Made by a program: the position numbers and the translations under genes. Shown piece by piece: positions 18,193 through 64,000 of a stretch of 64,000 nucleotides of DNA (positions are counted from its first letter, which is position 1; every line of letters begins with the position of its first letter). This DNA comes from Malus domestica (lineage: Eukaryota > Streptophyta > Magnoliopsida > Rosales > Rosaceae). The notes under the pieces were generated by a model, which did no database searches, was not told the origin of the DNA, and saw nothing but the letters and a program-made list of their open reading frames with translations. The stretch is from the NCBI RefSeq assembly GCF_042453785.1, contig NC_091675.1:4476501-4540500 (forward strand), read 5' to 3'.

Positions 18193-20060
18193 TTAATTAA
18201 AAATTATAGTTGTTGCAGTAAGGACCACCATCAGTGGGCAAAATAGGTAGTAGCTTATAGGTAGATTAGCACTGCCAGGAGCTCCACTTGGGAAGTACGA
18301 AGGATCTAGCTCGCCTGCCTCCCCTGCCCCCCCTGTGATGTCTAGTCCCCGTGGCACAGGTGGTGCAGTTGACTGTGGTGGCGTGATTGGTTGCGGTGGT
18401 GGTGTGATCGGCACTGGCGGTGGCTTGATATCTTCTGGTGGTGGGGTGATTGATGGCAGCGATGGCGTTGGTATGACTGATACCGGTGGTCGCGCTGGCG
18501 GAGGAATGATTGGTACAGGTGACGGCGATGGCAGTGGCATTACCGGTACAGGTGACGGCGACGGCAATGGCATTACCGGTACAGGTGACGGCGACGGCAG
18601 CGGCATTACCGGTATAGGTGGTGGCGATGGCAATGGTAGGATTTGTACCGGCGGAGCGCTAGTTTTTGGTGAAGATGGTGTTGTTGGGGTCGTAGGCTCC
18701 GTTGTTGAACTCTTTAGACAAGCCACGTCGGGCACCGTAGTGCCGACATAAGTTCCGTCGGCATTGTTACAAGATGCAAAAATCTTCATATCCCCGACCG
18801 CTGGCACTATATTAATTTTATCCATCAAAATATTATGACAGCCACCAGAAACTTTATCACAGTTGAGTTTAATCGCCTCATCCGTCGCAGAAGTGCCTTC
18901 AAAATCGTTGTACGTCACATCCGCCACCACCACGGCCGACGACTGACTTTTGCAATTGTGTTCCCCATTGCAATAGTACTGATCAATAATGATAGGGTAT
19001 TTGGCTCTGTCAAGTTTGATCCTCTCAAACGTGATGTTCCTCGCATACCCGGAGCCGCCCTGCCACGTTTTTATTCTCGCTCCGTTTGTAGTTCCAGTAA
19101 AACTACAATCTTTCACGTATATGTTGTCCACTTTATTACTAGCTCCATCTTCTCCTAAGCTTCCAACGCTGTTTGCAAAAGAGAATTAATCTATGAGAAT
19201 CTGAATACTAATGAAGATTAGCATTTGATTATATTTATTTAACAATTAATGGAAAAGAAGGGAATGGAGACATACCTAATTCCATGGCCTGGTCCGCACG
19301 CAATGTTGGTGATGTAGAGAAAGGAACACCCGTCGCCAATGGCGATACAATCATCGCCTGTTCCGATAAACGAGTTGCGAATGGTGACATGGGTCGAGGA
19401 AGAGATGTCAATACCATCAGTGTTTGGACTGTCTTCCGGCGCATGTATGTTCAAATCTGAGACATCTGCATTGTCACAACTATTTATACCAATATGCGCT
19501 TGCGGGCTGTTCAGAAAAGTCAGTCCGCTGAGCTTAAGGTTTTGACAGTTGTGGAACTGCAATGCCTTATTTGGTTTGCAGTCGTTATTTGCCAAGAGTT
19601 TGCGCGATCTCGCATTGTACTGGCTGGTGCTCCACCACGCAGCCCCTTGGCCGTCGATTTTTCCTGAGCCGTCGAGCATTAGGTTTTCAATGTTTGAAAA
19701 ACTTAGCCAGTCCCCCGAATCGCATTCTTTCCATGCACCACGCACAGGAGCCAATAAATTCCCTAGAATCTGAACGTGAACGCTCTTCGAGTTGCATGGA
19801 CCTTCAAACTTTATACGTTGCAATAAGTACGTTTTCCCCTCCGGCACAATAAGTATCGGTATGTCATCCGTAGCGTCATTATTTCCTTCACATAAATCTT
19901 TCCACGCTTTAAAAAAAGCTTGGGAGTCGTCTGCCCGTCCATCTCCCATAGCACCGTATTTGGTTACGTCTAATATTTTGTGGCCTTGTCCGATGCCAAT
20001 AAACAACGATGAAGCGAGAAAGAAAACTAAAATGCAAACGAGTGTGTTGGTGATCGACAT
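18193..20060 (-). CDS. Polygalacturonase (GH28, exo-type) with proline-rich C-terminal repeats
   Basis: Hydrolyses alpha-1,4 bonds of de-esterified pectin in the cell wall. Exon 1 is 20060-19276 and exon 2 is 19168-18193, separated by a 107-bp GT-AG intron that interrupts the GHGIS motif; the protein is 586 aa. A signal peptide covers about residues 1-25. Catalytic motifs are SPNTDG (211-216), GDDC (235-238), GHGIS (258-262) and RIK (293-295), all intact. After the catalytic domain (to about 415) comes an unusual Pro/Ser-rich tail with near-perfect VMPLPSPSPVP repeats, then PITPP-type repeats and a hydrophobic C-terminus (ISYYLFCPLMVVLTATTIIF) that resembles a GPI-anchor signal. Most plant GH28 proteins are about 400 aa without this extension. 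I chose ATG 20060 over the in-frame ATG at 20102 because it starts a clean signal peptide. Confidence 0.9.
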
Positions 20061-20212
20061 TGTTTGCAAACAATTCAAATAATTATACAAACAAAAATCC
20101 AAAACTATTGTAGGCCTATTTGATTGAACTAATCTAGAGAATTAGAGAGAGAGGTCCGACCACAATTAGAGAGTAGAGAGAATGATTTAATTGTGAAGTG
20201 TGTCATTGTGTC

Positions 20213-35758: not shown

Positions 35759-36217
35759 TTATTGTGAGTACTGCATCTGCATGGCAATCAAAATCCGGTA
35801 TAAATCCGAAAGTCTCGCACATAGAGCTAAGGACTCGGATGTCAAGCGGTCATTTTCTCTCCATGTTACGTGACACTTTTGAGCAACCACCCCCAACCGG
35901 TTCTTCATCTCCAGGTTCTCTATTTTCAACCGTTCCACCTCGTTCGTCATGTCCTCTAAATGCCTCTTCTTTCTCCACCTGGACCGCCGGGCTGACTCGC
36001 GATTTGACATCGTCCGTCTACGCTTTCTCTCGTCAACTGTATAGACCTCCCGGTTCGACCCCTCTGAGCTTGGGGAGGCCGAGTTCCCTGCTTGAAGCAA
36101 AGACAGTAGCTCTTGAATCTCGGCTGTTGTGAGCTCGGTTTCTTGAACCGGGCACTCGAAGTGGCCCATGTGGGCCGGTTCATGGTTGATGAACATGGCT
36201 GAAGAACTCATCATCAT
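35759..36217 (-). CDS. Group S basic leucine zipper (bZIP) transcription factor
   Basis: Single-exon, 152-aa nuclear DNA-binding protein. The basic region (about residues 65-90) holds the invariant spacing N-x7-R in NRESARRSR, followed by a leucine zipper with heptads through L-E-N-L-E-M-K-N-R-L and later leucines to near the C-terminus. The short size, lack of introns and N-terminal acidic/Gln segment fit plant group S bZIPs, which bind ACGT or ACTCAT elements as dimers. I chose the first of three consecutive ATGs (36217); the in-frame ATG at 36358 would add a tail lying upstream of the TATA box. I see no group S1-type conserved sucrose-control uORF upstream. Confidence 0.88.
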   Translation of the reverse strand: MMMSSSAMFINHEPAHMGHFECPVQETELTTAEIQELLSLLQAGNSASPSSEGSNREVYTVDERKRRRTMSNRESARRSRWRKKRHLEDMTNEVERLKIENLEMKNRLGVVAQKCHVTWRENDRLTSESLALCARLSDLYRILIAMQMQYSQ

Positions 36218-36278
36218 TTGAGTGAAGGGAAGGGAGGGAAGGAGGAGAAAAGGGAAGGAACGAAGAAGAGGGGCTGAG

Positions 36279-36286
36279 TTTTTATA
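36279..36286 (-). promoter_or_regulatory. TATA box of the bZIP gene
   Basis: The minus strand reads CTATAAAAACTC about 65 bp upstream of the chosen start codon. This supports the internal ATG choice. Use as a promoter is inferred. Confidence 0.5.
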
Positions 36287-37577
36287 GTCGAATGAAAAGA
36301 GACAAATGGGGTCCACCCTATGCAAAAGTTTTGGAGCAGTGAGGGTAATTTTGTCCAAGAAAAGTATGTGTTGAACAAAGGACTAGGGTTTCTTTTTATT
36401 TTTGGTTTATAAAAATTTTTAAATGTATTTTTGGGTTGGTGTAGTGCCATTACGTGCACAACTTTTGTGTAAAGGGGGAATGGGAATGGAAATGGTGATG
36501 TGTGGTGGTAGGGTTTCTGCTTTGTTAAGGAGAGAGGGATGGTGGGCTCCAACAGAAGATTAGCTTTAGCTTAATCACGAAGAATCAAACAAAAATGTAT
36601 AAACAAACAACAGATTATCTGAAAGTTTAGCCGACAAATTTCGCACAAGGCGTATGGAATACGCAGTTGAGAAGGTGATGATCTGATTCTCTCAATAATC
36701 AATATACATACCTGTGTTTGGAAAAATTCTGAAAAATATACAGTCAAATTATCCAAGATTGATATTATATTGTAAAAATCAAGATCTTCGGTCGAACTCA
36801 TGATAAATGCATATGTATAGACAGGGTCTTATGTATTTAAAAGGATGAACGTTCACAATTATGATATATTTTTTTCTTTAATTTAATTTGATCTCATTTT
36901 TTAACAGTCACAAAATTGACCATCTAGGGTGTATAAGCTGCTTTTGTGAGCTTCGCTTTTACATGGTTAGTGTCAGATTTTGCGCCTGAAGTGATTAATC
37001 AACCTAAGACGAATCCTAAAGTTTATGCTTCAAATGGCGATTCTACATCTAAAATCGAGTCAATAAATGTGATCAAAGAAAGAAAATTAAATTGAGTATA
37101 AAGATAGGTTTTATTAACAAGATTGATTGTTATTTAGCGTCATAACCAGATAATAACCAGTGCATATATATAATTCCCAGCTCACCGTGAGATGCATTAG
37201 TAAGCCTTTTGAGAATATTTCATTTGAAAAGAGTTGAGCTCCAGTAGTTAAAAGCAAGTTCTGTGTTCAAATTCCTCATTCTCCATTAATATTACCCCCT
37301 GTACCAGAAAAAGTATACCTCGTTTGTCATATTATTCTTTGTTCCTAGAACATGGCGTTTCGAATAAAATACTCGCATACAAATTAAGATTTCGTGGAAA
37401 GGAATCAAGGCAGTTTTCTTAGTTAGCATTCCTGGACTTTTTCTCAGTGGACGTTTTGGAAAGGGGTTCGGCTCTCATTAGTAAATCCAGACCAAAATAT
37501 AAGTGGATGCTAACATGCACACGTTCTCTTCTGCGTTTGAAGCTTTAATTAACCAGTAAAAATACAATCTAATGAAA
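36287..37577. other. bZIP upstream region and spacer
   Basis: Contains the upstream region of the bZIP gene and AT-rich sequence with no recognised gene, RNA or element up to the Mutator-type insertion. Confidence 0.4.
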
Positions 37578-51416: not shown

Positions 51417-51451
51417 CTGTTATTATCACTCTAAAAATCTCATTTTACACT
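51417..51451. mobile_element. Left half of a MITE split by the LTR retrotransposon
   Basis: The sequence 'ctgttattatcactctaaaa' to 'ttttacact' equals the left half of the element at 47769-47885. It is cut exactly at the retrotransposon border; the other half resumes at 62154. Confidence 0.75.
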
Positions 51452-52374
51452 TGTAGACATCGAAATTTCGGTAAATAAATGTTGACCGATAAATCAAAGT
51501 GTCAACGCTCATGTATTACATAAATTTTACACGTAACGTGTGACTCAACGAAAATTGAAATGAGTTGGAAAAGTCATCAAATAGGACACATGTCAACACC
51601 TGGCAGAAACGACTTATTTCATCTGGGATATTATATTCAAAATTAGGCATTGGAAAATTCTATAAATACAAGCCCATTTCATTCATTTAAGGGAACCAAT
51701 TCATATTACACCTTGAAGCTCTGAAACTCCAAAGCTCTCAAGCATCCAGGTTCCCGAAGAATCAAGAAAGCCTTCTTCGTTCTTCGTTCATCGTTCTTCC
51801 AAGATCAAGCCCCGACGGCCCTTGAAGAAAGTGTTCTTCGTTCATCGTTCTTCTAAGATCAAGCCCCGACGGCCCTTTGGATCAACAATCATCCACCTTC
51901 AAGCCCAAGCCTCAACGGCCCATTGAAGAAAGCGTTCATCGTTCATCGTTCATCAACTGTTCATCCTCAAGGATCAAGCCCCAACGGCCCCTTTGGATCG
52001 ACAACATCAACGAATCCGCTCATCCGCTGTTCATCAAGCCCAAGCCTCGACGGCCCTTGAAGAAAGCGTTCATCGTTCATCGTTCATCAACTGTTCATCC
52101 TCAAGATCAAGCCCCAACGGCTCCTTGAAGATCCGCTCAAATCCACCTTCAAAGATCAAGCCCACGGCCCCTTTGAAGAAACTTCCAACTGTTCATCCAA
52201 GATCAAGCCTTGACGCCCCTTGGATCGACGAAACACCTACCAATCAACACCTTACGGAGATCGAATCAGAGGATAAATTTGAGAGAGATTGTAACCCAAA
52301 ATCATCAAATACAAATATTTGTTTGTGCACGTTTGTTCTTGTCTCTTTCGTTTCAGGAATTTTCCGTGTTCACA
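51452..52374 (+). repeat. 5' LTR
   Basis: Begins TGTAGACATCG and ends TTCACA. A TATA box TATAAATA lies at 51661-51668. From about 51790 to 52220 it contains an irregular array of 'caagcctcgacggcccttgaagaa'-type units (each under 50 bp) that also recurs in the element's interior. Short frames through this array are not genes. Confidence 0.95.
51661..51668 (+). promoter_or_regulatory. TATA box in the 5' LTR
   Basis: TATAAATA in 'attctataaatacaag', about 210 bp into the LTR, is the likely core promoter of the retrotransposon. The identical site in the 3' LTR is at 61440-61447. Confidence 0.7.
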
Positions 52375-52452
52375 AATTGACACGCCCAGTGGGACAATCT
52401 CTACCTCTCATCTCTTCCTTCGTTCAAAGAATCCAAGTACACCTCAAAGTCA

Positions 52453-54417
52453 ATGGCATCAAGCAAGGGACAAGCCGTTCTTGCAACCACTGAGGGAAGG
52501 ATCTTAAGCACTTCTGCCGCAAATGGACGATCCATTGGCGCCACAACCGCTCCTCAACATGCCACTTCAAAATTGGTGCCGCTAAAAGAGCAAGGGGAGC
52601 ATCCAAGGTGTGAGTCTGTCATCAACCTGATCTCGCTGGGGGCACCGAAGCATGATGTTAAGGCACACAAGATGACATCCCAAAACAGCCAACGACGTTC
52701 TTCATCAGCATCCTGGATGTTTAAAGGAAAGTCACGTCTATTGGTCGCACAAGTCATGACTATTGGTGTTACCTCCGTTGAAGAACAACTGGCTCAAATG
52801 AATGAAGCGATTGCAAGGCTAACACAGATTGTGGACGAAAAAGACTTGCAAATTGCTGCCCTCGTCAGCCGACTGGAGCCACAGGACGGCGATAAACCCG
52901 ACCCAGAGAATGATCCACTAAAGAGAAGAGATGACGAAGAAGATGAGCCTCAGGTGGAGAAAAACGATGCGAAGCCGGAGCCAGACCAAGCAGCGGCACT
53001 CATGGGATCTCTTTCTATCCAGCAACTGCAAGAGATGATCACCAACACCATCAAGGCACAGTACGAAGGGAGCTCATATACCTCCGGGTTGTACTCAAAG
53101 CCGTATTCAAAGAAGATCGACGCCTTAAGGATGCCGATGGGTTATCAACCACCAAAGTTCATGCAATTTGATGGAAAGGGAAACCCGAAACAGCACGTTG
53201 CCCACTTCGTTGAAACTTGCAACAACGCAGGAACCGAAGGGGACTACCTCGCCAAGCAGTTTGTGCGCTCGCTGAAAGGAAACGCCTTTGAGTGGTACAC
53301 GGATCTGGAGCCTGAGTCCATCAACAGTTGGGAGCAATTGGAGCGGGAATTCCTTAATCGCTTCTACAGCACCCGCCGCACTGTAAGCATGCTAGAGCTA
53401 ACAAGCATAAAGCAGTGGAAGGACGAGCCAGTCATTGACTACATCAACAGATGGCGCACTCTAAGCCTCGACTGTAAAGACAGGATCTCGGAAACCTCTT
53501 CAATCGAGATGTGCATCCAAGGCATGCAATGGGGTTTGCAATACATCCTTCAAGGCATTAAACCGCGGACCTTCGAGGAATTGGCCACTCGCGCCCATGA
53601 CATGGAGTTGAGCATCGCCCATCATGGGAAGAAAGAACCGACCGCCGACTACAAGAACGAAAAAGTTCTTGGGACAAAGGTGGAAAAGGCTGCATGGAAA
53701 CCCACCAAGGAAGCGATGACGGTCAACACATCTCCCGTCAAAATATCCACACGAGGCAAGGCGATTCAAACCGAAGCTTTTCGTGATCAAGAGATGCGTA
53801 GACGCACTTTGAAGGAGCTTGAGGAGAAGACTTATCCATTCCCCGACTCTGATGTGGTTGCCATGCTAGATGACCTGTTGGACAAGAAGGTGATCAGTTT
53901 GCCTGAGTGCAGACGGCCAGAAGAGATGAATCGCACTGACAGTCCAAGGTACTGTAAATTCCACCGCTTCATCAGTCATCCGACAGAAAAATGTTTCGTG
54001 CTGAAAGATCTCATCATGAAGCTGGCTCAGAAAGGAATCATCGAGCTAGATCTTGACGATGTGGCGAAGTCAAACTATACCACCTTCACTTTTGGCTCTT
54101 CCGACTCAAAGTTTTCACCTCAACCGCTGGGGGCATCCTCCAAGACAAGCAAAGTTGAAGGATGGACTCAAGTCACTCCTAAGAAATTGCATAAGAAGCA
54201 TACGTCTCCTCCACAAGTCCGCCAATCGGAAAGGGGGCAAAGCAGCTCTTGTCAACCTTCAAAGCAACATGAACGTGTTGAAGATGATGAAACTTCGACA
54301 CGAAGATCGTCCGTCCCCATCATGATGCGCGACTTCTTGCCCGAAGACTTCTTCAATCACGCGGTCAAAGCTCCTTGCTATGAAAATTGTAAGGAACGCC
54401 TCTCCCGGATTGCTTGA
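52453..54417 (+). CDS. Retrotransposon Gag-like polyprotein, 654 aa
   Basis: Structural protein that would form the particle packaging element RNA. It has a short coiled-coil near residues 108-142, an acidic linker, then a retrotransposon Gag domain at about 236-386 (FMQFDGKGNPKQHVAHF, FVRSLKGNAFEWYTDL, WEQLEREFLNRF, CIQGM..GIKPRTFEELATRAHDME). At about residues 500-517 there is a CKFH-x4-H-x4-C pattern (CKFHRFISHPTEKC), a zinc-knuckle-like motif common in plant Ty3-type Gag proteins. The frame is open throughout and ends at a TGA, with no fused protease. Start ATG 52453 lies about 80 bp after the LTR. Confidence 0.9.
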   Translation: MASSKGQAVLATTEGRILSTSAANGRSIGATTAPQHATSKLVPLKEQGEHPRCESVINLISLGAPKHDVKAHKMTSQNSQRRSSSASWMFKGKSRLLVAQVMTIGVTSVEEQLAQMNEAIARLTQIVDEKDLQIAALVSRLEPQDGDKPDPENDPLKRRDDEEDEPQVEKNDAKPEPDQAAALMGSLSIQQLQEMITNTIKAQYEGSSYTSGLYSKPYSKKIDALRMPMGYQPPKFMQFDGKGNPKQHVAHFVETCNNAGTEGDYLAKQFVRSLKGNAFEWYTDLEPESINSWEQLEREFLNRFYSTRRTVSMLELTSIKQWKDEPVIDYINRWRTLSLDCKDRISETSSIEMCIQGMQWGLQYILQGIKPRTFEELATRAHDMELSIAHHGKKEPTADYKNEKVLGTKVEKAAWKPTKEAMTVNTSPVKISTRGKAIQTEAFRDQEMRRRTLKELEEKTYPFPDSDVVAMLDDLLDKKVISLPECRRPEEMNRTDSPRYCKFHRFISHPTEKCFVLKDLIMKLAQKGIIELDLDDVAKSNYTTFTFGSSDSKFSPQPLGASSKTSKVEGWTQVTPKKLHKKHTSPPQVRQSERGQSSSCQPSKQHERVEDDETSTRRSSVPIMMRDFLPEDFFNHAVKAPCYENCKERLSRIA

Positions 54418-54705
54418 CAAAATTCACAAAAGCTCATTGTCCGCACGAGCCTAAACTGTAGGACACAATGCTCCTTGTTCGCACGAGCCTAAAACTGCAT
54501 GAACCAAAGCTCCTCGCCTACACGAGCCTAAATTGCATGGCACAATGCTCCTGGTCTGCACGAGCATAAAAGGCAACACCAACGCTCCTGGTCTGCACGA
54601 GCATAAAATGCGACAACCCAAAGCTCCTTGCCTGCACGAGCTGAAACTGCAACACGGCACCAAATGCTCCTTGTCTGCACGAGTTGAAACTGCAAACGGC
54701 ACCAC
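54418..54705 (+). repeat. Degenerate tandem repeats after gag
   Basis: Around seven copies of a unit of roughly 40-45 bp with the core 'gctcctngtctgcacgagc' and 'taaactgca'. Non-coding; minus-strand Cys-rich frames are artefacts of the repeat. Confidence 0.85.
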
Positions 54706-54890
54706 CAAAAGAAAATACAAAAAAAATATATATATATCTATGTATTTGAACTACGTCTTGACTTGATCTCTTTCTTTGGAAGGGTACGTAGGCAGCTTAA
54801 ATATTCAATTTCAAGTTCAGTCACATCAAAATTAAAAAAAAAAGTGTTTTATTAAATAGAGTCAATTTTATTACAAAAAAAAAGAGAGAT

Positions 54891-54895
54891 ATATA

Positions 54896-54943
<48 letters not shown>
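54891..54943. repeat. (AT)n / (GTATAT) microsatellite
   Basis: An AT dinucleotide run with a few G interruptions inside the retrotransposon. Confidence 0.95.
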
Positions 54944-54944
<1 letters not shown>

Positions 54945-55383
54945 CTAGTTCGAGCAGCAACAAAAGAAGGCAGAAAACGCCATGGACTCCAAAGCAACAC
55001 CAGGCCCAAGCCTGTGTCAAGTCCAACGTCCAAGCCTGGTTCTCTCTCGGTCCGTACACACCTCAAATCACCATTTCCCTTGCCAACAAGCCCAAAACAG
55101 GCCTGGGCCCATAACGCACAGACCACGCTCAAGTTGATTTGCAAGACCATGACACGTACAAAGTGACGGACCGGCTGAGGAAGGAAGTTCGAATGCCACT
55201 GAGGAAGGTTCTCGAGCTGCCGGAGGTGTACATACCAGTGGGTTTCGATTCCGTACAACAGAGTGGTTTCCGTGGTGATGAAGAATTACAAGGAGTTACT
55301 TGGAGGCTGCTGAAAACTCTACCTCTCTTTCTCGCCTTCATCACTGCACCAGAAATTCGGAATTTCCAGCAAGCATTAGAACA

Positions 55384-55475
55384 TGGGTTCCCCGCCGCAG
55401 AATCCCAACTGGGTCTTCGATTATAGTGTGATTGAGGACATTCTTGTGCCAGGTGGTGAACTTCCATCTCTTGAC
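55384..55475 (+). pseudogene. Possible fragment of an ILR3-like bHLH gene 5' end
   Basis: The plus strand reads MGSPPQNPNWVFDYSVIEDI LVPGGELPSL, resembling the N-terminus of ILR3/bHLH115-type factors. There is no bHLH domain and the frame then diverges and stops. Identification rests on a short match from memory. Confidence 0.4.
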
Positions 55476-55716
55476 CCACCACTTCAACCCGTTCATCTCG
55501 CCCGATTCGAGTTGGGTCGGGTACCACAAAGTGCAGAAGCAGCAGGATTCCACTAGCCCAAATCCGAGTCCAGCTCCCTTTCTAGCATCGTCTTTGACGC
55601 TTGTAGCAGCGCCGTCAACAACATGAGCAGCTCTCCACGACAACCACAGCAACTCCAGCTGCACGACGAATGCTTTGTCGCTTTGAGTCACCACCACTCA
55701 AAGCTCTTCCGATCAG

Positions 55717-55826
55717 AAGAAGGCAATTGTCGCCGTCGACAACGACGGTTCAAAGAAGATTGCTGATACTTTTGGTCAGAGAACTTCGATTTACAGAGGG
55801 GTCACCAGATTTATTACAAACTGACA
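55717..55826 (+). pseudogene. AINTEGUMENTA-like AP2 factor fragment (start of the AP2 domain)
   Basis: The frame reads KKAIVAVDNDGSKKIADTFG then QRTSIYRGVTRF, the linker and first strand of AP2 repeat 1 in AIL/PLETHORA proteins. It stops at TGA shortly after, where HRWTGRYE would be expected. In AIL genes an intron interrupts soon after this point, so the end may mark an exon border. Confidence 0.72.
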
Positions 55827-55866
55827 AAAAGCAAACCCGAAACGTCTATTAGTCAGATACAAATAC

Positions 55867-55932
55867 ATGGCTCCAGCGAGCAATTGGTTGTCCTTCTCTC
55901 TCATGTCTCCCATGGAAATGCTGAGGTCCTCT
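55867..55932 (+). pseudogene. AINTEGUMENTA-like factor N-terminal fragment
   Basis: The frame reads MAPASNWLSFSLMSPMEMLR SSES, the conserved N-terminus of AIL6/PLT3-type proteins (with one extra Met). It lies after the AP2-domain piece, the reverse of the gene's own order, so pieces were shuffled. Confidence 0.75.
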
Positions 55933-56296
55933 GAGTCCGATCAATCTCCGGCGGGATCTCGACCTTTAACCCGGTTCGATCCTCATAGATCTGAAATTGC
56001 CATGACTCCCGTGGATCTCTCCTCCCTTTCCCTTCGTCTCTGTAGAAATTTGGGGCACCCAGAGGGCACCCAAATTCGGTCTCTCCCTCTTCATCCGCCG
56101 CTGCCAACCTAGGCAGAGCAGAAAGCGACGCCGCCTTCAACCTCTAACTTCCCGTCTCCACCTTCTTCGTCCAAAGCAAGCACCATCGACTGCAGTCCGA
56201 CGAATCGCTTGCGGCCAAAGCTATTCGAGCCTCGTCGGCGCATCGCGACTCCTCTCTCTCCTCCACTTACGCTGCTCGCGGTGCTCGCCTGCTCTC

Positions 56297-57146
56297 TGCA
56301 AACATATTAGATGAAGAGCAATGCAAAGAATTGAAAATGGGTTCTTATTTGGCTGTTGCCGCAGCCTCAACAAATCCCTCGCATTTTATTCACTTGATTT
56401 ACAAACCCCCTGGCGGACCTGCTAAGGTCAAATTAGGGTTGGTTGGTAAAGGTCTTACCTTTGACAGCGGTGGCTACAACATCAAGACAGGGCCTGGCTG
56501 TTCAATTGAACAAATGAAATCTGATATGGGAGGTTCAGCAGCCGTATTAGGTGCAGCAAAAGCCATTGCTCAAATCAAACCAACTGGTGTAGAGGTTCAT
56601 TTCATTGTTGCAGCTTGCGAGAATATGATGAGTGGAACAGGTATGAGGCCTGGAGACATTGTGACAGCATCAAATGGAAAGACAATTGAGGTCAATAACA
56701 CTGATGCTGAAGGTAGACTTACTCTGGCTGACACATTGGTATATGCTTGTAACCAAGGTGTTGATAAGATTGTTGACCTAGCAACCTTAACCGGTGCTTG
56801 CATAGTTGCTTTTGGACCCTCAATAGCAGGTGTCTTCACACCAAGTGATGACCTGGCGAAGGAGGTGTTTGCAGCTTCAGAAATCAGTGGGGAGAAATTT
56901 TGGAGGTTGCCAATGGAGGAGAGTTATTGGGAATCAATGAAATCCGGAATAGCCGATATGCTCAACACCGGTGCTCGTCAAGGTGGTTCAATAACTGTTG
57001 CTCTCTTCTTGAAGCAGTTCATTGATGAAAAAGTTCAGTGGCTGCATATTGACATGGCCGGGCCTGTTTGGAGTGACAAGAAACGCACTGCTACAGGGTT
57101 CGTTGTTTCCACTCTGGTGGAGTGGGTTCAGAACAACTCTTCTTAA
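56297..57146 (+). pseudogene. Intronless C-terminal half of a leucine aminopeptidase (M17) gene
   Basis: An open frame of more than 270 codons from about 56297 ([18 protein letters not shown]) to the natural stop at 57144. It carries the M17 metal and catalytic signatures: [28 protein letters not shown], and [17 protein letters not shown]. These hold the Lys, Asp and Glu ligands of the two zinc ions. Plant LAP genes have several introns; none is present, so this came from spliced RNA. The N-terminal half is missing and replaced by unrelated sequence. The reading frame is intact, so a truncated protein could be made, but no start of its own is evident (first ATG in frame 56337). Confidence 0.9.
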
Positions 57147-57430
57147 GTAGCTGAAGCGTCCGGCGGGAGAAGCATTACATCAGCATCACCAGCCTGGGTA
57201 CAAATCCATGTTGATGGGGTTCTTTGATGCCGCGAGTCGGACTTCAGTTGATGAATAAAACGTGCAGGAAAAGAAATGGCAAGGGTTAATGGACCTATGG
57301 ACATAGTCTTGTTCAAGTTTTTACTGCGAAATCCTTCATATCTTTCCTGTAAGGGTCGGTTTAATTTCTCCTTTTGTATGATTTGCCTTTTATCTTGTCG
57401 TACACCACGTCTTCGTCTCGCCATTTGTGC
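57147..57430 (+). other. Probable leucine aminopeptidase 3' UTR
   Basis: The stretch following the stop is T-rich and non-coding ('gatgaataaaacgtgcagg' contains AATAAA). It most simply continues the captured LAP transcript. Inferred from position only. Confidence 0.4.
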
Positions 57431-57479
57431 GATACGTCAAGACCACCGCGCGCTCCTGCGGGCAGCGAGGACAGGATAA

Positions 57480-57826
57480 ATGCAGTCCAGCAAGCATACG
57501 GTGCCGGTCAGATCCGGATGTTAGGGGTGTACATACAGCGATCGTGGATCATTTTGCTAGTGACAGCTTGCGCCATGGTCCCCATCTATGTGTGGCCCCC
57601 ACCTATTCTCGAGCTAGTTGGAGAGACCACCAAGATTTCTGAGGCCGCCGAAAGGTTTGCAGTGTTGATGCTTCCACAGTTACTCGTCTATGCCATCAAC
57701 TTTCCAATTCAATAAAAATAAAAAAAAATCTTACAAGCACAGAGGAAAGTTAGTGTGATAGCCTGGATCTCAGGTGCAGTACTTGTAGAACATGCATTTC
57801 TCAGTTGGTTGCTGATGATTAAGCTC
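57480..57826 (+). pseudogene. MATE (DETOXIFICATION) transporter fragment
   Basis: The frame reads AVQQAYGAGQIRMLGVYIQR SW then ILLVTACAMVPIYVW, and QLLVYAINFPIQ. After an A-rich insertion (57716-57729) it continues as ILQAQRKVSVIAWISGAVLV EHAFLSWLLMIKL. This is the region of transmembrane helices 2-5 of plant MATE efflux carriers. The pieces are joined without introns and broken by the A-rich insert, so it is a captured, non-functional fragment. Confidence 0.78.
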
Positions 57827-57829
57827 GTT

Positions 57830-58625
57830 GGGGGAGTATAGGGTGTCTTGAGAGATTCCTTCAAGTTCATCCTTGCCGTCTCCGCCACAACGGATACGCT
57901 TGAAAATTGGGAGGATCGACGAGAGGCTGAGGTCGTCTAAGCTTGTGCGACTCGGTTGAGTTGCTGAACACGTGGAAGATCCCCTACTACATCTGCACGT
58001 CCGCCCTCTCTGCCCATCTTCCACCGCAGCGCCTGGCCTCCCTCGAGCTCATCACTATGGCCACCATGATAGCAAAAAAACTTCAACGACCGCCGTCAAA
58101 CGACTAGCCGGTCATGAAGCTCGAAGCACCATCTTCTCGGCCTCCTTGCTCCGCTCCCTGCAAGTTCCTCTACCCATCACCCAAATTTATACACAAAAAA
58201 AAAAAAAAAAAAAGAGGGTGGTGGTGCATCTGGCACCACGTGAAAAAAAAGGGAAGGGTGCATGGGCACCAACTAAAGAAACAGAAAATAATACAAAAAA
58301 TAAGAAAAAAGGGTTTCATGGTGCGTCTGGCACCATGTGCAGAAAAAGAAAGAAAAAAAAAAATATATATATATATATTTATATAAAAATAAAAAATAAA
58401 AAATAGAAAAGAAGGAGAAAAGAAAAGAAAATGAAGTTATGATAATATGGTGTGTATGTACATAATATATGTCTGTATATAGCAACAAAAAAAAAAAAAA
58501 TGCATCGAGAGAAATAAAGTCCATTTTATTTATTTTTTTCTGGAAATTTTACACAAATTTGCACTATGCATACCTTAAAAAAAAAAAAAAAAAAAAAATC
58601 AAATCAAATTTACAACAGGGGATAT
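57830..58625. other. Retrotransposon interior with A-rich tracts
   Basis: Contains unidentified sequence to about 58190 (possibly another host fragment reading TWKIPYYICTSALSAHL), then A-rich runs and two copies of 'ggtgc(a/g)tctggcaccacgtg'-like sequence (about 58222 and 58321). No gene is called. Confidence 0.4.
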
Positions 58626-59237
58626 TCAAGGACGATCAGGTGGCGCCTCACAACTCGGCAGAGCTCCAGGAAGAGAAGGCGTCGGAGGTTGGCTGTTTGA
58701 AGCCTCAGCAGTCGGTACAGCCCCAGAAGACGAAGGTAAATGCTGCTGGAACAAACCCACAAACCTCCGATGATCAAGTAAAATCTGACCATCAGATTCC
58801 TGCATCTGGTCAATTTTCCTCTTCATGTTTGTGGCATAGTTATGTGCAAGCTTGTGCAACTGTTTATTCTCATGCTTGAGCCCTCTGATCTCTTGTTTGA
58901 GACTCATCACTTCAGCCGCCAACGATTCAACTTGACGGGTTCGAGCAAATAGGCGTTGGGCCATGTTGGACACAGAACCCGCACACTGCACACTAAGAGC
59001 CAGGGACTCCTTAACAGCCAACTCATCTGACCGCCTGGAAAGTAGTCTGTTATCTTTGGGAGTGACAAGGTTCCGGGCCACCACCGCAGCGGTCATATCA
59101 TTCTTCATCACCGAATCCCCAACAGTAAGAGGACCAGTAGGGGATATGAAGGATGGGCGCCATATGTTGTCTGGAGAAGGCGGGACTGCCTCTTCACCAA
59201 GATTCAAGTCAAAACGACGGTCGGAGGGTCCAGACAT
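58626..59237 (-). CDS. Antisense ORF of the retrotransposon, 203 aa
   Basis: The frame opens MSGPSDRRFDLNLGEE and runs opposite to gag. The middle is a heptad-rich coiled coil (about residues 100-165: TRQVESLAAEVMSLKQEIRG LKHENKQLHKLA). The C-terminus is Pro/Ser-rich. I recall near-identical predicted proteins annotated in many dicot genomes as part of retrotransposons, and antisense ORFs are reported for Tat-lineage Ty3 elements. Its length, ATG context and lack of stops support a maintained ORF. Function is unknown. Confidence 0.7.
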   Translation of the reverse strand: MSGPSDRRFDLNLGEEAVPPSPDNIWRPSFISPTGPLTVGDSVMKNDMTAAVVARNLVTPKDNRLLSRRSDELAVKESLALSVQCAGSVSNMAQRLFARTRQVESLAAEVMSLKQEIRGLKHENKQLHKLAHNYATNMKRKIDQMQESDGQILLDHRRFVGLFQQHLPSSSGAVPTAEASNSQPPTPSLPGALPSCEAPPDRP

Positions 59238-60590
59238 TTTCAAAGTGTTGAAGGAAGAAGAGATCGGACAAATCAAGATCTTAGAAGTGCAAGAGGGGAG
59301 TTTTCACAAGCGAAAATTCAAGTGTGCTTTGAAACGAACTGCATGCCTCTATAAAAAATCAGCACTCGACGGGATTTCAGAGATCGAAGAGGCGAGCTCA
59401 GAATTCGAAGAGGCCATTCAAAAATCGAAGAGGCAAGCTCAGAAATCGGAGAAGCATCTTGCTTTTCCAGACGCGTCAACACCCGTCACACGCAAACTCA
59501 GCTTTGCGGAAATCACGGGCAATTTGTTAAAGCGCCAATCCCAGATATCGAAGAGGCGCCAGTCTTTTCAGCCTCGTCATCACCTGTCATATGCACACTC
59601 AACTTTGCGCAAATCACGGGCAATTTGTCGAAGATTTTCGGTGAAGGAGAAAGCACGTGAAATTTTATTGTTCAATCACGCGTTAGTTGTCGACACGAGT
59701 GAAAGAATAGTACCTCTACAAGTATTAAAGAACTTCCTATAAACTGTCTACCTTCACCCTACATAGTAAGGCAGACATACATAACATTTCTTCATCTCCA
59801 AAAATGCTTTCCCAACGAAACCTCTCGAGTCATTCAGTGTTCCTTATTCCTTGGGGTACCTCTGCAAGCCAATGACTCCAAAGCAAAAGTATCTCATATC
59901 ACCAGGGTAGAAAGCAAGAGTATCTCATATCATGCGTTCTCTCTGTCCTTTCCTTTGTCCTTGTTCTTACCTACAAAGACAAGGATAAAGAAAACAATAT
60001 GCCGGAACTTCCACTCGAACTCGGGTAAGGAACCGACTGCTTGGAACCCTTCCCTGATTGCCTACCTAGCACTGCTCTCGAGTACTCGTTTCGCACTGCT
60101 GCTGTACTTCCAAAGAAGCTGCCACATCTGCCTGGAGAACAGATAAGGCAAGTGAAAATGATACCTTGCAGCATGTGGAGACAAGGTGCAGAAGGAACAA
60201 GCAGAGAAGAATGCGGTTTGCACAGTCAACTCAGCAGAAGGAGTCCGAACTGAGGAACTCGAGAAGCTGCCATATCTGCCTGAAGAAACAAGCAGAGAAG
60301 AATGCAACATGCACAGCCAACTCGGCAGAAAGAGTCTGAGATGAAGAACTCGTTTTGACCCTCAAATTCTTGGGTCGACTTACTAGGCGTTGTGGGCTGC
60401 ACGTGCCGATTCACCACCCTTGAATCGAATCCTTAAAGATCAAGTCACCAACTGGAAGAAAAGCCCATCAATCTTGAAGATCATACCGTTGACCAAACTG
60501 CTCAGGTGTGAATTAGAAAGATTGAACAAAGAAACAGGTTGTCACCTTCATCTCGTGCCTACTTGCCATGTGTTCGAGTCAACCTTCAAG
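59238..60590. other. Retrotransposon interior, leader side of the antisense ORF
   Basis: Includes a minus-strand TATA-like 'ttttttatagagg' at about 59349-59361, about 115 bp upstream of the antisense ATG. There are short 'atcgaagaggc' repeats at 59380-59570 and repeated 'agcagagaagaatgc..cagtcaactc' units at about 60195-60340. No host gene is recognised. Confidence 0.5.
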
Positions 60591-61155
60591 AATCAAGCCT
60601 CAACGGCCCTTGAAGAAGTTTCCGGCCAAATTCAAGATCAAGCCTCGACGGCCCTTGAGGAAATCACAAGTCCGATTCAAGATCAAGCGTTCACCATATT
60701 TGAATCAAATCCAGTTCAAGAACAAGCTGTGGAAAATCAACAATTGGAGGAATCCAAAAAATCCTCCAACCCAGTTCAAGATCAAAGTTGTGGAAAGTCA
60801 ACAAGCGCAACAAAATACGTGCCGATTCATCCACTACCAAAGCCAAATATCATCTACCACATGAAGCTCCTTGTGGCCCAATTTCAACCTTCAAGATCAA
60901 GCCTCGACGGCCCTTGAAGAAATTCCAAACAAAAGTTCAAGAACAAGCCTCAACGGCCCTTGAAGAAATCTCAAGCCCAATTCAAGATCAAGCCTCGACA
61001 GCCCTTGAAGAAATTTCAAACAAAAGTTCAAGAACAAGCTTCAACGGCCCTTGAAGAAATCTCAAGCCCAATTCAAGATCAAGCCTCAACGGCCCTTGAA
61101 GAAATCTCCAGCCCAATTCAAGATCAAGCCTCGACGGCCCTTGGATCGACATCTA
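60591..61155 (+). repeat. Tandem array of LTR-type repeat units before the 3' LTR
   Basis: About ten copies of 'ttcaagatcaagcctcgacggcccttgaagaaat'-like units in variable spacing. The same unit occurs in both LTRs. Frames through it encode IQDQASTALEEIS-type repeats that look like passive translation. Confidence 0.92.
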
Positions 61156-61230
61156 CAGTAAGGGACTTCAAAACGCATCTCCTACACGTGACAATCACAT
61201 GTATACGACGTGCTTTGAAGTGGGGGCATT

Positions 61231-62153
61231 TGTAGACATCGAAATTTCGGTAAATAAATGTTGACCGATAAATCAAAGTGTCAACGCTCATGTATTACAT
61301 AAATTTTACACGTAACGTGTGACTCAACGAAAATTGAAATGAGTTGGAAAAGTCATCAAATAGGACACATGTCAACACCTGGCAGAAACGACTTATTTCA
61401 TCTGGGATATTATATTCAAAATTAGGCATTGGAAAATTCTATAAATACAAGCCCATTTCATTCATTTAAGGGAACCAATTCATATTACACCTTGAAGCTC
61501 TGAAACTCCAAAGCTCTCAAGCATCCAGGTTCCCGAAGAATCAAGAAAGCCTTCTTCGTTCTTCGTTCATCGTTCTTCCAAGATCAAGCCCCGACGGCCC
61601 TTGAAGAAAGTGTTCTTCGTTCATCGTTCTTCTAAGATCAAGCCCCGACGGCCCTTTGGATCAACAATCATCCACCTTCAAGCCCAAGCCTCAACGGCCC
61701 ATTGAAGAAAGCGTTCATCGTTCATCGTTCATCAACTGTTCATCCTCAAGGATCAAGCCCCAACGGCCCATTTGGATCGACAACATCAACGAATCCGCTC
61801 ATCCGCTGTTCATCAAGCCCAAGCCTCGACGGCCCTTGAAGAAAGCGTTCATCGTTCATCGTTCATCAACTGTTCATCCTCAAGATCAAGCCCCAACGGC
61901 TCCTTGAAGATCCGCTCAAATCCACCTTCAAAGATCAAGCCCACGGCCCCTTTGAAGAAACTTCCAACTGTTCATCCAAGATCAAGCCTTGACGCCCCTT
62001 GGATCGACGAAACACCTACCAATCAACACCTTACGGAGATCGAATCAGAGGATAAATTTGAGAGAGATTGTAACCCAAAATCATCAAATACAAATATTTG
62101 TTTGTGCACGTTTGTTCTTGTCTCTTTCGTTTCAGGAATTTTCCGTGTTCACA
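61231..62153 (+). repeat. 3' LTR
   Basis: Same length and ends as the 5' LTR (offset 9779). The only difference I saw is A instead of C at about 61770 ('ggcccatttgg' versus 'ggcccctttgg'). Preceded by the polypurine tract at about 61217-61229. Confidence 0.95.
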
Positions 62154-62232
62154 ACACTACTCATAAATGTATTTTTCTTTATAATTATAGAAAGTTTGGA
62201 GTGCAAAATAAAATTTTTGGAATGCCAATAAC
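62154..62232. mobile_element. Right half of the split MITE
   Basis: After the duplicated ACACT the sequence 'actcataaatgtatttttct' to 'ccaataacaattattttc' equals the right half of the MITE at 47769-47885. Together with 51417-51451 it reconstructs one element interrupted by the retrotransposon. Confidence 0.75.
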
Positions 62233-64000
62233 AATTATTTTCATAAAAAGAGACTTCATCCCAGTGAAAGATCCAAGAAGACAAAAGCCGAAGAGGACGT
62301 CCTCGCAACCTACCATGCCCAATGCCTAAAACCCAATTCTCTTTTTGGCATAGTAGCTATGCTTGAAGAGAATATCAAAGATGCATTGAATAATTTTATG
62401 CGTAGCGATTGGGATGAGATGTTGGTTCATATGTGTGAAAAACTTATTCAGTATGTGTGTGTGTAGTTTTGTAAATTGAGAGTACGGATATTTGTGAATT
62501 TAGCACATATCTCTTGTAACCAAAAAATATTTTTAGAGACTTTATTCGTTCAACAAAGATTTGTTACATGATTGATAGGCGCTTGCCGCATGATATTTGA
62601 TTGACAAAACAATTTATAACTAGGGGCATTCCCATTCTCCTCTATGCTTGAAAATGTTATAAAAACAAATTAAGCATATTTTAGTATAAATTAGTAATGA
62701 AAATCTCGATATATATAATAGATAGGAATATAAGGATAATGCTGATATGTTAAAGAATGGAGGAAGATAATGATGAGCGTCGAGTGCGTTTCATCATTTC
62801 CATTACTAGCTAGCTAGCTACCTAAAGCTAGTTATTTGATAGAAAGAGATCGATCAAAGTCTCAAAGACATTTTTTAAAAGGAAATACTAGTGAGATTAA
62901 AAATTTTAAATTAAATTTACAAATAAAATGATATGGTTGTTGATGATTGGATTATTATGTAAACGTTGATTAACTTGTTTATTTCTTATCGTTGATACAT
63001 CATTTGATTTACAAATTTGAGTTAAAATTTTGATTTCTCTATCATAGGAAGATTTGTTTTGTTATAAACCAAACCCTAAAAAAGTTAACTTTCGTGGTGT
63101 GTGTTGGGTACGTATGTGCATGCGCGCGCATGCTAGAGAGAGATCTAGAGAGAGAGAGAATCTTTCCTTGATATCCAAACAAATGCGTGGCAGAATTGCT
63201 TTGCAATAGAGTTGCTGCAGCAATTAGAAGATTTCTTACCGGCTGTGACTTGAACAAATAATAACTAGGTTAGCTAGGAGGTAATTCAATATTACCAGGA
63301 AAACAAGCCCCAGTGCTCCAAAATCAATGTATTCACTTTCTAGGCTAGAAATTGATGTATGTGTGCATGAATAATAGGTGTCATTAGACAGTCTTGCATA
63401 GTTTAAAGAGAGATTTTTTATGTCATCGGCTATACATAATCACGTTTATATTTCTCAATACAATTATGTGCATGTCTCTTTCATCACGTCGTTATTAAAT
63501 AGTTTAGTCGACTCCAATAAAATATTTTTGAATGTCATCGATTGTATACAATTATGCGCCGATCTCTCTCAATACTTAATCACTTTAATAAACAAGAGAA
63601 ACATGTGTAATTGTATAATTAAACAAGTAATTAAATACATTTGTTCTCATCATGACAATTCACTTCTCTTCCTCCATGAAGGCTTAATTTTGAATACTCT
63701 AGCCTGAAAGTTTCATTTCAGACAGTTTTTAGATTTAAGTCCATTCTTTACACTGCAATGTGCCAATGTTGTTTGTTAAGCGATGTGCCAATGTTGTTGG
63801 TTTTATGATAGGTGTCACTAGACAGTCTTGCATGGTTTAAAGAGAATATCAAAGACGCATTGAATAATTTTATCACAAATGTATTTTTCTTTATAATTAT
63901 AGAAAGTTCGGAGTGCAAAATAAAAATTTTGGAATGTCAATAACAATTTTTTTCATAAAAAGAGACTTCATCCCAGTGAAAGATCCAAGAAGACAAAGCC
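62233..64000. repeat. Rearranged direct repeats at the right edge, no gene recognised
   Basis: 62160-62290 and 63873-64000 are near-identical and both run from the MITE half into 'agagacttcatcccagtgaaagatccaagaagacaaa'-type unique sequence (given in part). 62369-62400 recurs at 63843-63873, and 63379-63411 recurs at about 63812-63844. A MITE relative lies at about 62905-63030. Short frames here lack any family signature. Confidence 0.75.

Follow-up and report, generated by a model that had tools for sequence, protein, structure and literature searches.

How pieces of several host genes came to lie inside one LTR retrotransposon, and whether that element collected them itself, are the questions raised by a locus of apple (Malus domestica). 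The window, the whole stretch of 64,000 nucleotides analysed here, contains at 51452-62153 an LTR retrotransposon of about 10.7 kb with TG...CA ends. Two of the pieces, from a leucine aminopeptidase and a MATE transporter gene, prove to be copies of host RNA, and a region of variable content at their site is a trait of the family.

Architecture of an apparently pol-less element

The element has LTRs with TG...CA ends, a short target-site duplication (TSD), gag and a polypurine tract, as expected of an LTR retrotransposon. Its LTRs are young, with a single mismatch in 923 bp (51991/61770). Its parts are as follows.

51447..51451, no strand: left copy of the TSD, ACACT (sequence)
51452..52374, + strand: 5′ LTR, 923 bp, TG...CA (LTR comparison)
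52378..52395, + strand: primer-binding-site-like stretch, three bases in from the 5′ LTR (a call from position and sequence only)
52381..54417, + strand: gag open frame, 678 aa stop to stop (Pfam, PF03732, 2.7e-15)
54420..55044, + strand: conserved left zone after gag, with short tandem repeats and an A/T-rich tract; common to relatives
55045..57999 (limits approximate), + strand: cargo bay, a mosaic of host RNA copies whose contents differ in relatives
58000..61215, + strand: conserved right zone; common to relatives
58626..59303, − strand: antisense ORF (aORF), 225 aa stop to stop (ORF list)
61216..61230, + strand: purine-rich, polypurine-tract-like stretch directly before the 3′ LTR (position and sequence)
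61231..62153, + strand: 3′ LTR, 923 bp (LTR comparison)
62154..62158, no strand: right copy of the TSD, ACACT (sequence)

The original prediction had read a perfect TSD, near-identical LTRs, a Gag ORF and a lack of pol motifs from this locus, and all four hold. Pfam found no pol in eight frames of the element, and tblastn with one apple Gypsy probe, taken from locus L030 (by Pfam it comprises RNase H, the zinc-binding domain of integrase and the end of RT), matched neither the window element nor any of the loci L009-L048 except L029/L030; this probe represents a single lineage, so that pol of another lineage or in heavy decay could escape it. By Pfam and this single-lineage probe, the window element lacks the set of protease, RT, RNase H and integrase that marks an autonomous LTR retrotransposon, and the same probe found no RT in the family copies examined. 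The 16-kb copy L023/L024 was rejected as a pol carrier, its surplus length including a nested hAT transposon (DUF659, zf-BED and hAT dimerisation domains); its cargo includes a helicase domain. A scan with Gag found no relatives among viral contigs.

Host pieces in the bay and evidence of RNA origin

The bay and its borders hold the following pieces.

55098..55297, + strand: DUF2828-domain gene in two parts, carrying a frameshift and lacking about 690 nt internally (protein match to P0091)
55349..55480, + strand: bHLH gene, 5′ UTR and first 33 codons (P0240; C5:44792917, 95%)
55474..55660, + strand: two short pieces without assigned origin, also in L039-L043
55650..55808, + strand: AIL6 exon 3, 3′ part up to the splice donor (...YRGVTR; C15:30854715-30854873, 97%)
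55809..55949, + strand: AIL6 exon 2 from the splice acceptor, 58 nt of 5′ UTR and codons 1-28 (C15:30855721-30855864, 99%)
55941..56189, + strand: piece common to the predicted apple protein P0241 (MTPVDLSS...) and copies L031-L033, without settled parent
56190..56301, + strand: uncharacterised gene, P0242 codons 36-68 (protein match)
56292..57401, + strand: leucine aminopeptidase (LAP), 855 nt of CDS (stop at 57146) followed by 3′ UTR; without its six introns
57402..57489, + strand: piece without assigned origin, matched in the C11 copy only
57490..57827, + strand: MATE (DETOXIFICATION 33-like, DTX33-like); one intron missing

Six host genes are identified here by protein (DUF2828, bHLH, AIL6, the uncharacterised P0242-like gene, LAP and MATE). 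With both strands searched, all six lie in sense, and minus-strand matches are weak (E >= 0.08). LAP (PF00883, 6e-106) and MATE (PF01554, 1.2e-11) are supported by Pfam, and AIL6 is identified by protein matches. That LAP, MATE and AIL/PLETHORA pieces lie between gag and the antisense ORF is thus borne out; the predicted minimum of three host genes was right and falls short of the actual mosaic, to which DUF2828, the bHLH N-terminus, the P0242-like gene and a reversed order of AIL6 exons have to be added. Untranslated sequence was taken up with LAP (3′ UTR), bHLH (5′ UTR) and AIL6 (5′ UTR).

The cargo from LAP and MATE is of RNA origin. The parental LAP gene in the apple genome consists of seven exon blocks, and the element copy has none of its six GT-AG introns; the MATE parent has two exons, whose one GT-AG intron is missing as well, with one base at the join differing from the parent. 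The predicted lack of introns is therefore confirmed for seven introns in all, and retained introns, named beforehand as evidence against the idea, were found in neither gene. Nor did later separate insertions, the other such outcome, appear: there is no nested LTR-like pair or nested insertion among the best 20 of 43 direct-repeat families, and no nested insertion among the best 25 of 79 inverted repeats. Spliced pieces of several host genes within one LTR element are the mark of a Bs1-like transduction. The relative L009 likewise lacks an intron of PEP carboxylase (130 bp) and one of another gene (407 bp), as judged by block positions, the borders not having been read. The DUF2828 piece has its probable parents at C13:9143548 and C16:9125127-9125995, and its internal deletion was rejected as a product of splicing because no placement yields GT-AG borders. 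The A-run of the MATE piece is expanded, which creates stops. The LAP copy differs from its parent at 17 of 855 nt, as against 1 of 923 between the LTRs, which argues that LAP was captured before the last insertion of the window element.

The AIL6 pieces stand in reversed exon order: the donor of exon 3 is joined to the acceptor of the upstream exon 2, and the joint falls exactly on both splice sites. This acceptor was placed from the sequence and is conserved in the homeolog. Such a junction of a downstream donor with an upstream acceptor is the signature of back-splicing and defines a circRNA-derived retrocopy, so that the reversed exons were most likely copied from a back-spliced circular RNA; the AIL6 copy in L027/L028 spans 690 of the 807 nt of the predicted circle of exons 2 and 3. 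The same order might have arisen without a circle: reverse transcriptase could have switched between two linear AIL6 mRNAs, or the template could have been a trans-spliced or tandem-duplicated transcript. Template switches at short matches are frequent in the window element, and the joint has a 3-nt overlap (CAG). Against this, both sides of the joint coincide with splice sites, the acceptor is kept in the homeolog, and the L027/L028 copies traverse most of the predicted circle; we regard a linear origin as rather unlikely.

A variable bay in the relatives

Both anchors, gag and the aORF, are present in 18 copies: the window element and 17 relatives, of which 10 were picked by LTR similarity (L009-L012, L016-L020, L026) and seven for common cargo (L013, L027, L028, L031-L033, L041). 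For want of an anchor, L021 and L022 (LTR only), L023, L024 and L025 (one anchor missing), L042-L046 (short stretches with the gag anchor only), L040 and L029/L030 (no anchor) stand outside the 18, and the first-listed loci L001-L008 were left out. In 18/18 the anchors enclose a core of 1043-2839 bp that is variable, that is, covered by fewer than four of the other 17 copies. The variable region at the bay site is therefore a trait of the family and not of the window copy alone. P450, PEP carboxylase, Sec15, NLR and P-type ATPase genes occur in some of the other cores. Among relatives, 8 of 19 sense ORFs passed the Pfam cut-off (7/10, 0/5, 1/2 and 0/2 by set, the first set having been preselected as gene-like), as did 0 of 10 antisense ORFs; no scanned ORF passed it in the bays of L011, L012, L017, L018, L020 and L026, which belong to the 10 relatives picked by LTR alone. 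Of the 12 copies in which an LTR pair could be measured, 11 have LTRs that are at least 99.5% identical. L011, the only relative with both outer ends found by script in its stretch, has matching TSDs (GTAAT). Because the filling at this one site varies from copy to copy, the family has the look of active machinery for gene shuffling.

The anchors themselves are kept. The median dN/dS of gag is 0.20 (14 copies), and the aORF stays open for at least 190 aa in 14 of 18 copies, with a median dN/dS of 0.29.

The check proposed beforehand, a search of related copies for the same fragments, showed that the pieces recur in other combinations and that the window element has joints in common with other copies. 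The region 55098-55480 is also in L029 and L030, both without the backbone of the window family; 55650-56262 is in L027 and L028; 55941-56122 and 56242-56301 are in L031-L033; and 56292-58079 is in the C11 copy, where the left part of the window cargo has no match. The C11 copy thus carries the LAP-MATE cargo on a far more diverged backbone: identity to the window element is 96.3% in the cargo, as against 90.0% in gag, 85.9% in the aORF and 87.3% in the LTR head, and synonymous divergence is 0.021 in LAP and 0.246 in gag. This contrast between cargo and backbone is clear for L013, L027 and L031 and weak or absent for L028, L032 and L033. Microhomology at six joints amounts to 4, 6, 8, 9, 7 and 2 nt (sum 36, about 4 expected), as read by eye against present-day sources that are possibly not the true donors, one count needing a 1-nt gap. 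Shared cargo on a diverged backbone and microhomology at the joints suggest that cargo also moves between elements, and the divergence values support such an exchange. Since its pieces are found elsewhere in other combinations, the window element probably did not itself collect the larger part of them; it looks like a recombinant of already circulating cargo.

Probable template switching, its alternatives and known systems

The explanation that we hold to be very probable as a whole takes the window element for a recently inserted member of an apple LTR family that has gag but no pol. Its cargo was acquired, on this view, as reverse transcriptase switched templates one after another, to host mRNAs, to at least one circular RNA and to other elements, and selection maintains gag and the aORF while the cargo drifts and is replaced. 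Family RNAs would be packed into particles made of their own Gag and of enzymes from an autonomous relative, and cellular RNAs would occasionally be packed with them: mRNAs after splicing and, most likely, an AIL6 circle made by back-splicing. During minus-strand synthesis, reverse transcriptase would jump at short microhomologies onto these RNAs, or onto RNAs of other copies with other cargo, and then return to the element RNA, whereby the usual place of pol would turn into a refillable bay. We infer the packaging, the helper element and the order of jumps; capture at the RNA level by template switching is well supported because seven introns are missing, six genes lie in sense and the joints have microhomology. 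Of the original proposal, repeated template switching onto mRNAs, capture from RNA stands; one of the sources, however, looks like a circular RNA and not an ordinary mRNA, and the window element was probably not the site of most captures.

That the window element or its direct parent hopped over many mRNAs in a single reverse transcription would agree with the sense orientation of the identified pieces and the spliced state of LAP and MATE, and is largely contradicted by the partial mosaics common to the C11 copy, L027/L028, L031-L033 and L029/L030, which make one such burst improbable. Still less probable is a patchwork assembled from DNA, either as double-strand-break filler or by nested Helitron or Pack-MULE capture. 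Short scrambled pieces with microhomology do resemble end-joining filler, yet the introns of LAP and MATE are gone (the shorter pieces span none), all identified pieces share the orientation of gag, and in each of the 18 copies the same two anchors flank the variable core. Pack-MULE or Helitron capture was set aside with these introns missing, terminal structures having been sought among the best-listed repeats. The LAP chimera might also encode a selected protein, given its open frame of 332 codons, a near-identical chimeric protein in the apple annotation (P0075, 12 members on 7 contigs) and a dN/dS of 0.42 against the parent. The last value is lowered by the constraint on the parent itself, however, and between the window and C11 copies dN/dS of LAP is 1.41 on few changes (4 synonymous, 19 non-synonymous), far from the medians of gag and the aORF; stops or frameshifts interrupt the DUF2828, AIL6 and MATE pieces, and a working gene carrier seems accordingly a doubtful reading, about as improbable as the single burst.

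The apple element has partial parallels in known systems. Maize Bs1 is described as an LTR retroelement with segments of membrane ATPase, xylan endohydrolase and beta-1,3-glucanase genes (PMC13317346). Several host genes are likewise transduced in the apple element, but here they number at least six, contents vary among relatives at one site, cargo appears to have been exchanged between diverged backbones, and one joint is of the back-splice type. TR-GAG elements have LTRs, a single intact GAG frame and no pol, and one Arabidopsis member is reported to transpose in ddm1 (PMC8704663); gag is also the sole element frame in sense in the apple element, which adds long host-RNA cargo and an antisense ORF, at about 10.7 kb. 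The Gypsy elements Grande, RIRE2 and Retand have an antisense ORF between pol and the 3′ LTR (PMC7264820), to which the aORF, itself in the 3′ portion of the internal region, is likened by position; in the apple element no pol was found, and the bay occupies its place. Host genes within LTR elements are also known from a survey of annotated genes, with 672 captures in rice and 1,343 in sorghum (PMC3726574); as available, it describes no variable bay, mosaic exchange or analysis of introns, and its main text does not use ‘template switching’ or ‘intron’. Mouse circRNA-derived pseudogenes are retrocopies of back-spliced exons, and LTR sequences in their flanks are reported in a review (PMC5408686, PMC5345220). 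The AIL6 piece is an apparent copy of the same kind, but unlike these mammalian retrocopies it forms part of the cargo of an LTR element in a plant and occurs in at least three copies. In the literature searched, which was covered in part, no report was found of such a bay, or of any plant LTR element with a circular RNA inside it, and nothing specific on a gene-capturing family of apple; the main text of a Rosaceae TE paper does not use ‘captured’ or ‘gene capture’.

The case offers an example from plants in which an LTR element seems to have turned a circular RNA into DNA. Predicted apple proteins can be retrotransposon cargo, as P0075 warns: its annotation is that of an ordinary hypothetical protein, yet it is a chimera. 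What was with Bs1 a textbook curiosity becomes a process that seems to be family-wide and still under way, one genome holding several fillings of independent origin. The rules of template switching, exon shuffling and the RNAs present in plant retrotransposon particles thereby become directly measurable. We lean, by a small measure, to the broader view of an active pol-less family whose spacer bay is filled by any particle RNA, circles included, and whose fillings are swapped between backbones, even those of unrelated LTR families, while selection keeps gag, the aORF and perhaps the length of the bay, not its sequence. If so, the apple genome would keep a readable record of the RNAs that entered retrotransposon particles.

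Host-gene mosaic in the window element

The element at 51452-62153 is flanked by perfect ACACT target duplications, and its two LTRs, 923 bp each, differ by a single mismatch. It possesses an intact Gag frame of 678 aa (Pfam PF03732, 2.7e-15) and, near the right end, an antisense frame of 225 aa, for which no Pfam match above the curated cut-off was found. Pol was not found in the element with Pfam and a pol probe, the latter derived from one Gypsy lineage only. Its closest proteins bear Malus names, which points to apple, and the window covers 4476501-4540500 of contig C15 in a 651-Mb assembly. Immediately to the right of the insertion lies a 125-bp direct repeat, 96% identical (62161-62285 and 63873-63997). 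Elsewhere in the window, the minus strand carries ordinary host genes, which Pfam identifies as a polygalacturonase-like glycosyl hydrolase 28 (18193-20141) and a bZIP factor (35759-36382).

Protein comparison on both strands identified host pieces in the cargo between gag and the antisense ORF. From left to right, and all in sense orientation, these correspond to DUF2828, bHLH, AIL6 (an AIL/PLETHORA gene), an uncharacterised gene (P0242), leucine aminopeptidase (LAP) and a DTX33-like MATE gene. The DUF2828 gene is present as two pieces, the bHLH portion is the N-terminus, and the middle part of AIL6 is followed by its N-terminus; an additional piece matches a predicted protein, P0241. Probable parental loci for LAP, MATE, AIL6, DUF2828 and bHLH were found by genome searches. 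The LAP parent on contig C15 consists of seven blocks and six introns, all GT-AG; LAP in the window element is uninterrupted and reaches beyond its stop codon to include 3′ UTR sequence. The MATE piece lacks one GT-AG intron of its parent on C8, with a join differing from the parent by one base. The LAP and MATE pieces are copies of spliced RNA, and the intron evidence is confined to these two. Within the MATE piece, an A-run (57710-57730) that is A5 in the parent is longer in a family relative on C11 sharing the LAP-MATE cargo, and is interrupted and longer in the window element, introducing stops. One apple annotation includes P0075, a 381-aa hypothetical protein that is a chimera of window cargo 55903-57143, with 12 member sequences on seven contigs and an AIL6-derived start connected to the LAP part by a predicted intron.

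The inverted order of AIL6 coincides with splice sites. In the parent, exon 2 carries 58 nt of the 5′ UTR plus some 51 codons, and is followed by an intron and then by exon 3, which ends in ...YRGVTR; in the window element, the end of exon 3 (GT donor) abuts the first base of exon 2 (AG acceptor). This acceptor and its pyrimidine tract are kept in the C1 homeolog, and we infer that the acceptor is in use. Two relatives, L027 and L028, contain the identical joint, flanked by 549 nt of exon 3 and 141 nt of exon 2, and thereby span 690 of the 807 nt of a circle of exons 2 and 3. The exon order is most simply accounted for by a circular RNA template. A lucky switch between linear AIL6 mRNAs is possible, but it would have to land on both splice sites.

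A variable bay across the family

Four relatives picked by LTR similarity have the LTR, the right part and gag in common with the window element (gag being shortened in L012), but do not share window segment 54972-58079. Both anchors are present in 18 copies, namely 10 chosen by LTR, seven by shared cargo and the window element, and in these gag and the antisense ORF lie 2.3-4.2 kb apart. Each contains a core, 1043-2839 bp long, to which fewer than four of the other copies align (islands <60 bp were ignored, and the left zone was counted within the core for L020 and L026). Pfam matches in the bays of relatives are as follows.

L009 bay: P450 and PEP carboxylase
L010 bay: PB1
L016 bay: Sec15
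L019 bay: Rx_N and P-type ATPase
L033 bay: F-box
L023/L024 bay: helicase domain

Host-gene matches occur in four of the 10 LTR-chosen copies (L009, L010, L016 and L019), and L023/L024 is an eleventh copy outside the anchored set. A Pfam cut-off was passed by 8 of 19 sense ORFs versus none of the 10 antisense ORFs scanned. In the L009 bay, two cargo types meet at query position 978/979, and several other genome places match the left or the right type only; this joint is not unique to L009, because the two sides are also matched together at a single C17 place (19635158-19637542). Another family copy, L023, has a nested hAT transposon at 4636-7808, with a BED zinc finger, DUF659 and a dimerisation domain.

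Probable cargo exchange, age and selection

The window element and the C11 copy have 1,788 bp of cargo in common at 96.3% identity, whereas gag, the antisense ORF and the LTR head are only 90.0%, 85.9% and 87.3% identical; synonymous divergence is 0.021 for LAP and 0.246 for gag. This contrast is also seen in L027 and L031, and is weak or absent in L028, L032 and L033. Since the LAP piece is longer in the C11 copy, which has no match to window cargo left of 56292, the window LAP was probably truncated by a later switch at 56292-56301. The DUF2828-bHLH piece recurs in L029 (95%) and L030 (89%), which have no match to the window element beyond this piece. There it sits between direct repeats of ~340 bp, a candidate LTR-like pair, whose identity is 95.9% in L029 (2155-5815) and 90.0% in L030 (3851-7357), and the unit is nested in a Gypsy element, which in L030 shows pol domains. 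These loci may represent a second small LTR-like family likewise bearing host cDNA pieces, DUF2828 and bHLH.

LTR pairs were comparable in 12 of the 18 copies (221-991 aligned bases), and identity is at least 99.5% in 11 of them and 92.8% in L027. One difference per 923 bp corresponds to roughly tens of thousands of years at commonly used plant rates. The window insertion is recent, and the captures are older. A frame of at least 600 aa covers gag in 14 of the 18 copies, and in 10 of the 18 a near-full-length match to Gag is free of stops. Pairwise dN/dS of gag has a median of 0.20 (range 0.13-0.31 across 91 pairs), and that of the antisense ORF a median of 0.29 (range 0.06-0.56, from 90 of 91 pairs), whereas LAP cargo of the window and C11 copies, with four synonymous and 19 non-synonymous differences, gives a ratio of 1.41. 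Judged from these ratios, the backbone genes look constrained and the LAP cargo does not.

Proposed origin of the mosaic and known systems

Copy-choice reverse transcription over many rounds is the simplest account of the mosaic. Particles would hold element RNAs together with cellular RNAs, a helper would presumably serve the family of the window element, and the presumed succession of rounds would end with the one giving rise to the present window insertion. At six window joints the two sources overlap by 4, 6, 8, 9, 7 and 2 nt (by eye), with ~0.7 expected at each. According to a review, LTR-mediated retrocopies involve template switching at microsimilarities (PMC5408686). Bs1 is reported to have transduced three host genes (PMC13317346), and the counts of captured genes are 672 for rice and 1,343 for sorghum (PMC3726574). 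Gag-only elements capable of transposition (PMC8704663) and antisense ORFs in Grande, RIRE2 and Retand (PMC7264820) have also been described. As far as our searches show, this literature lacks a counterpart to a bay that is refilled throughout a family and exchanged between backbones, and to a plant cargo whose source was apparently a circular RNA.
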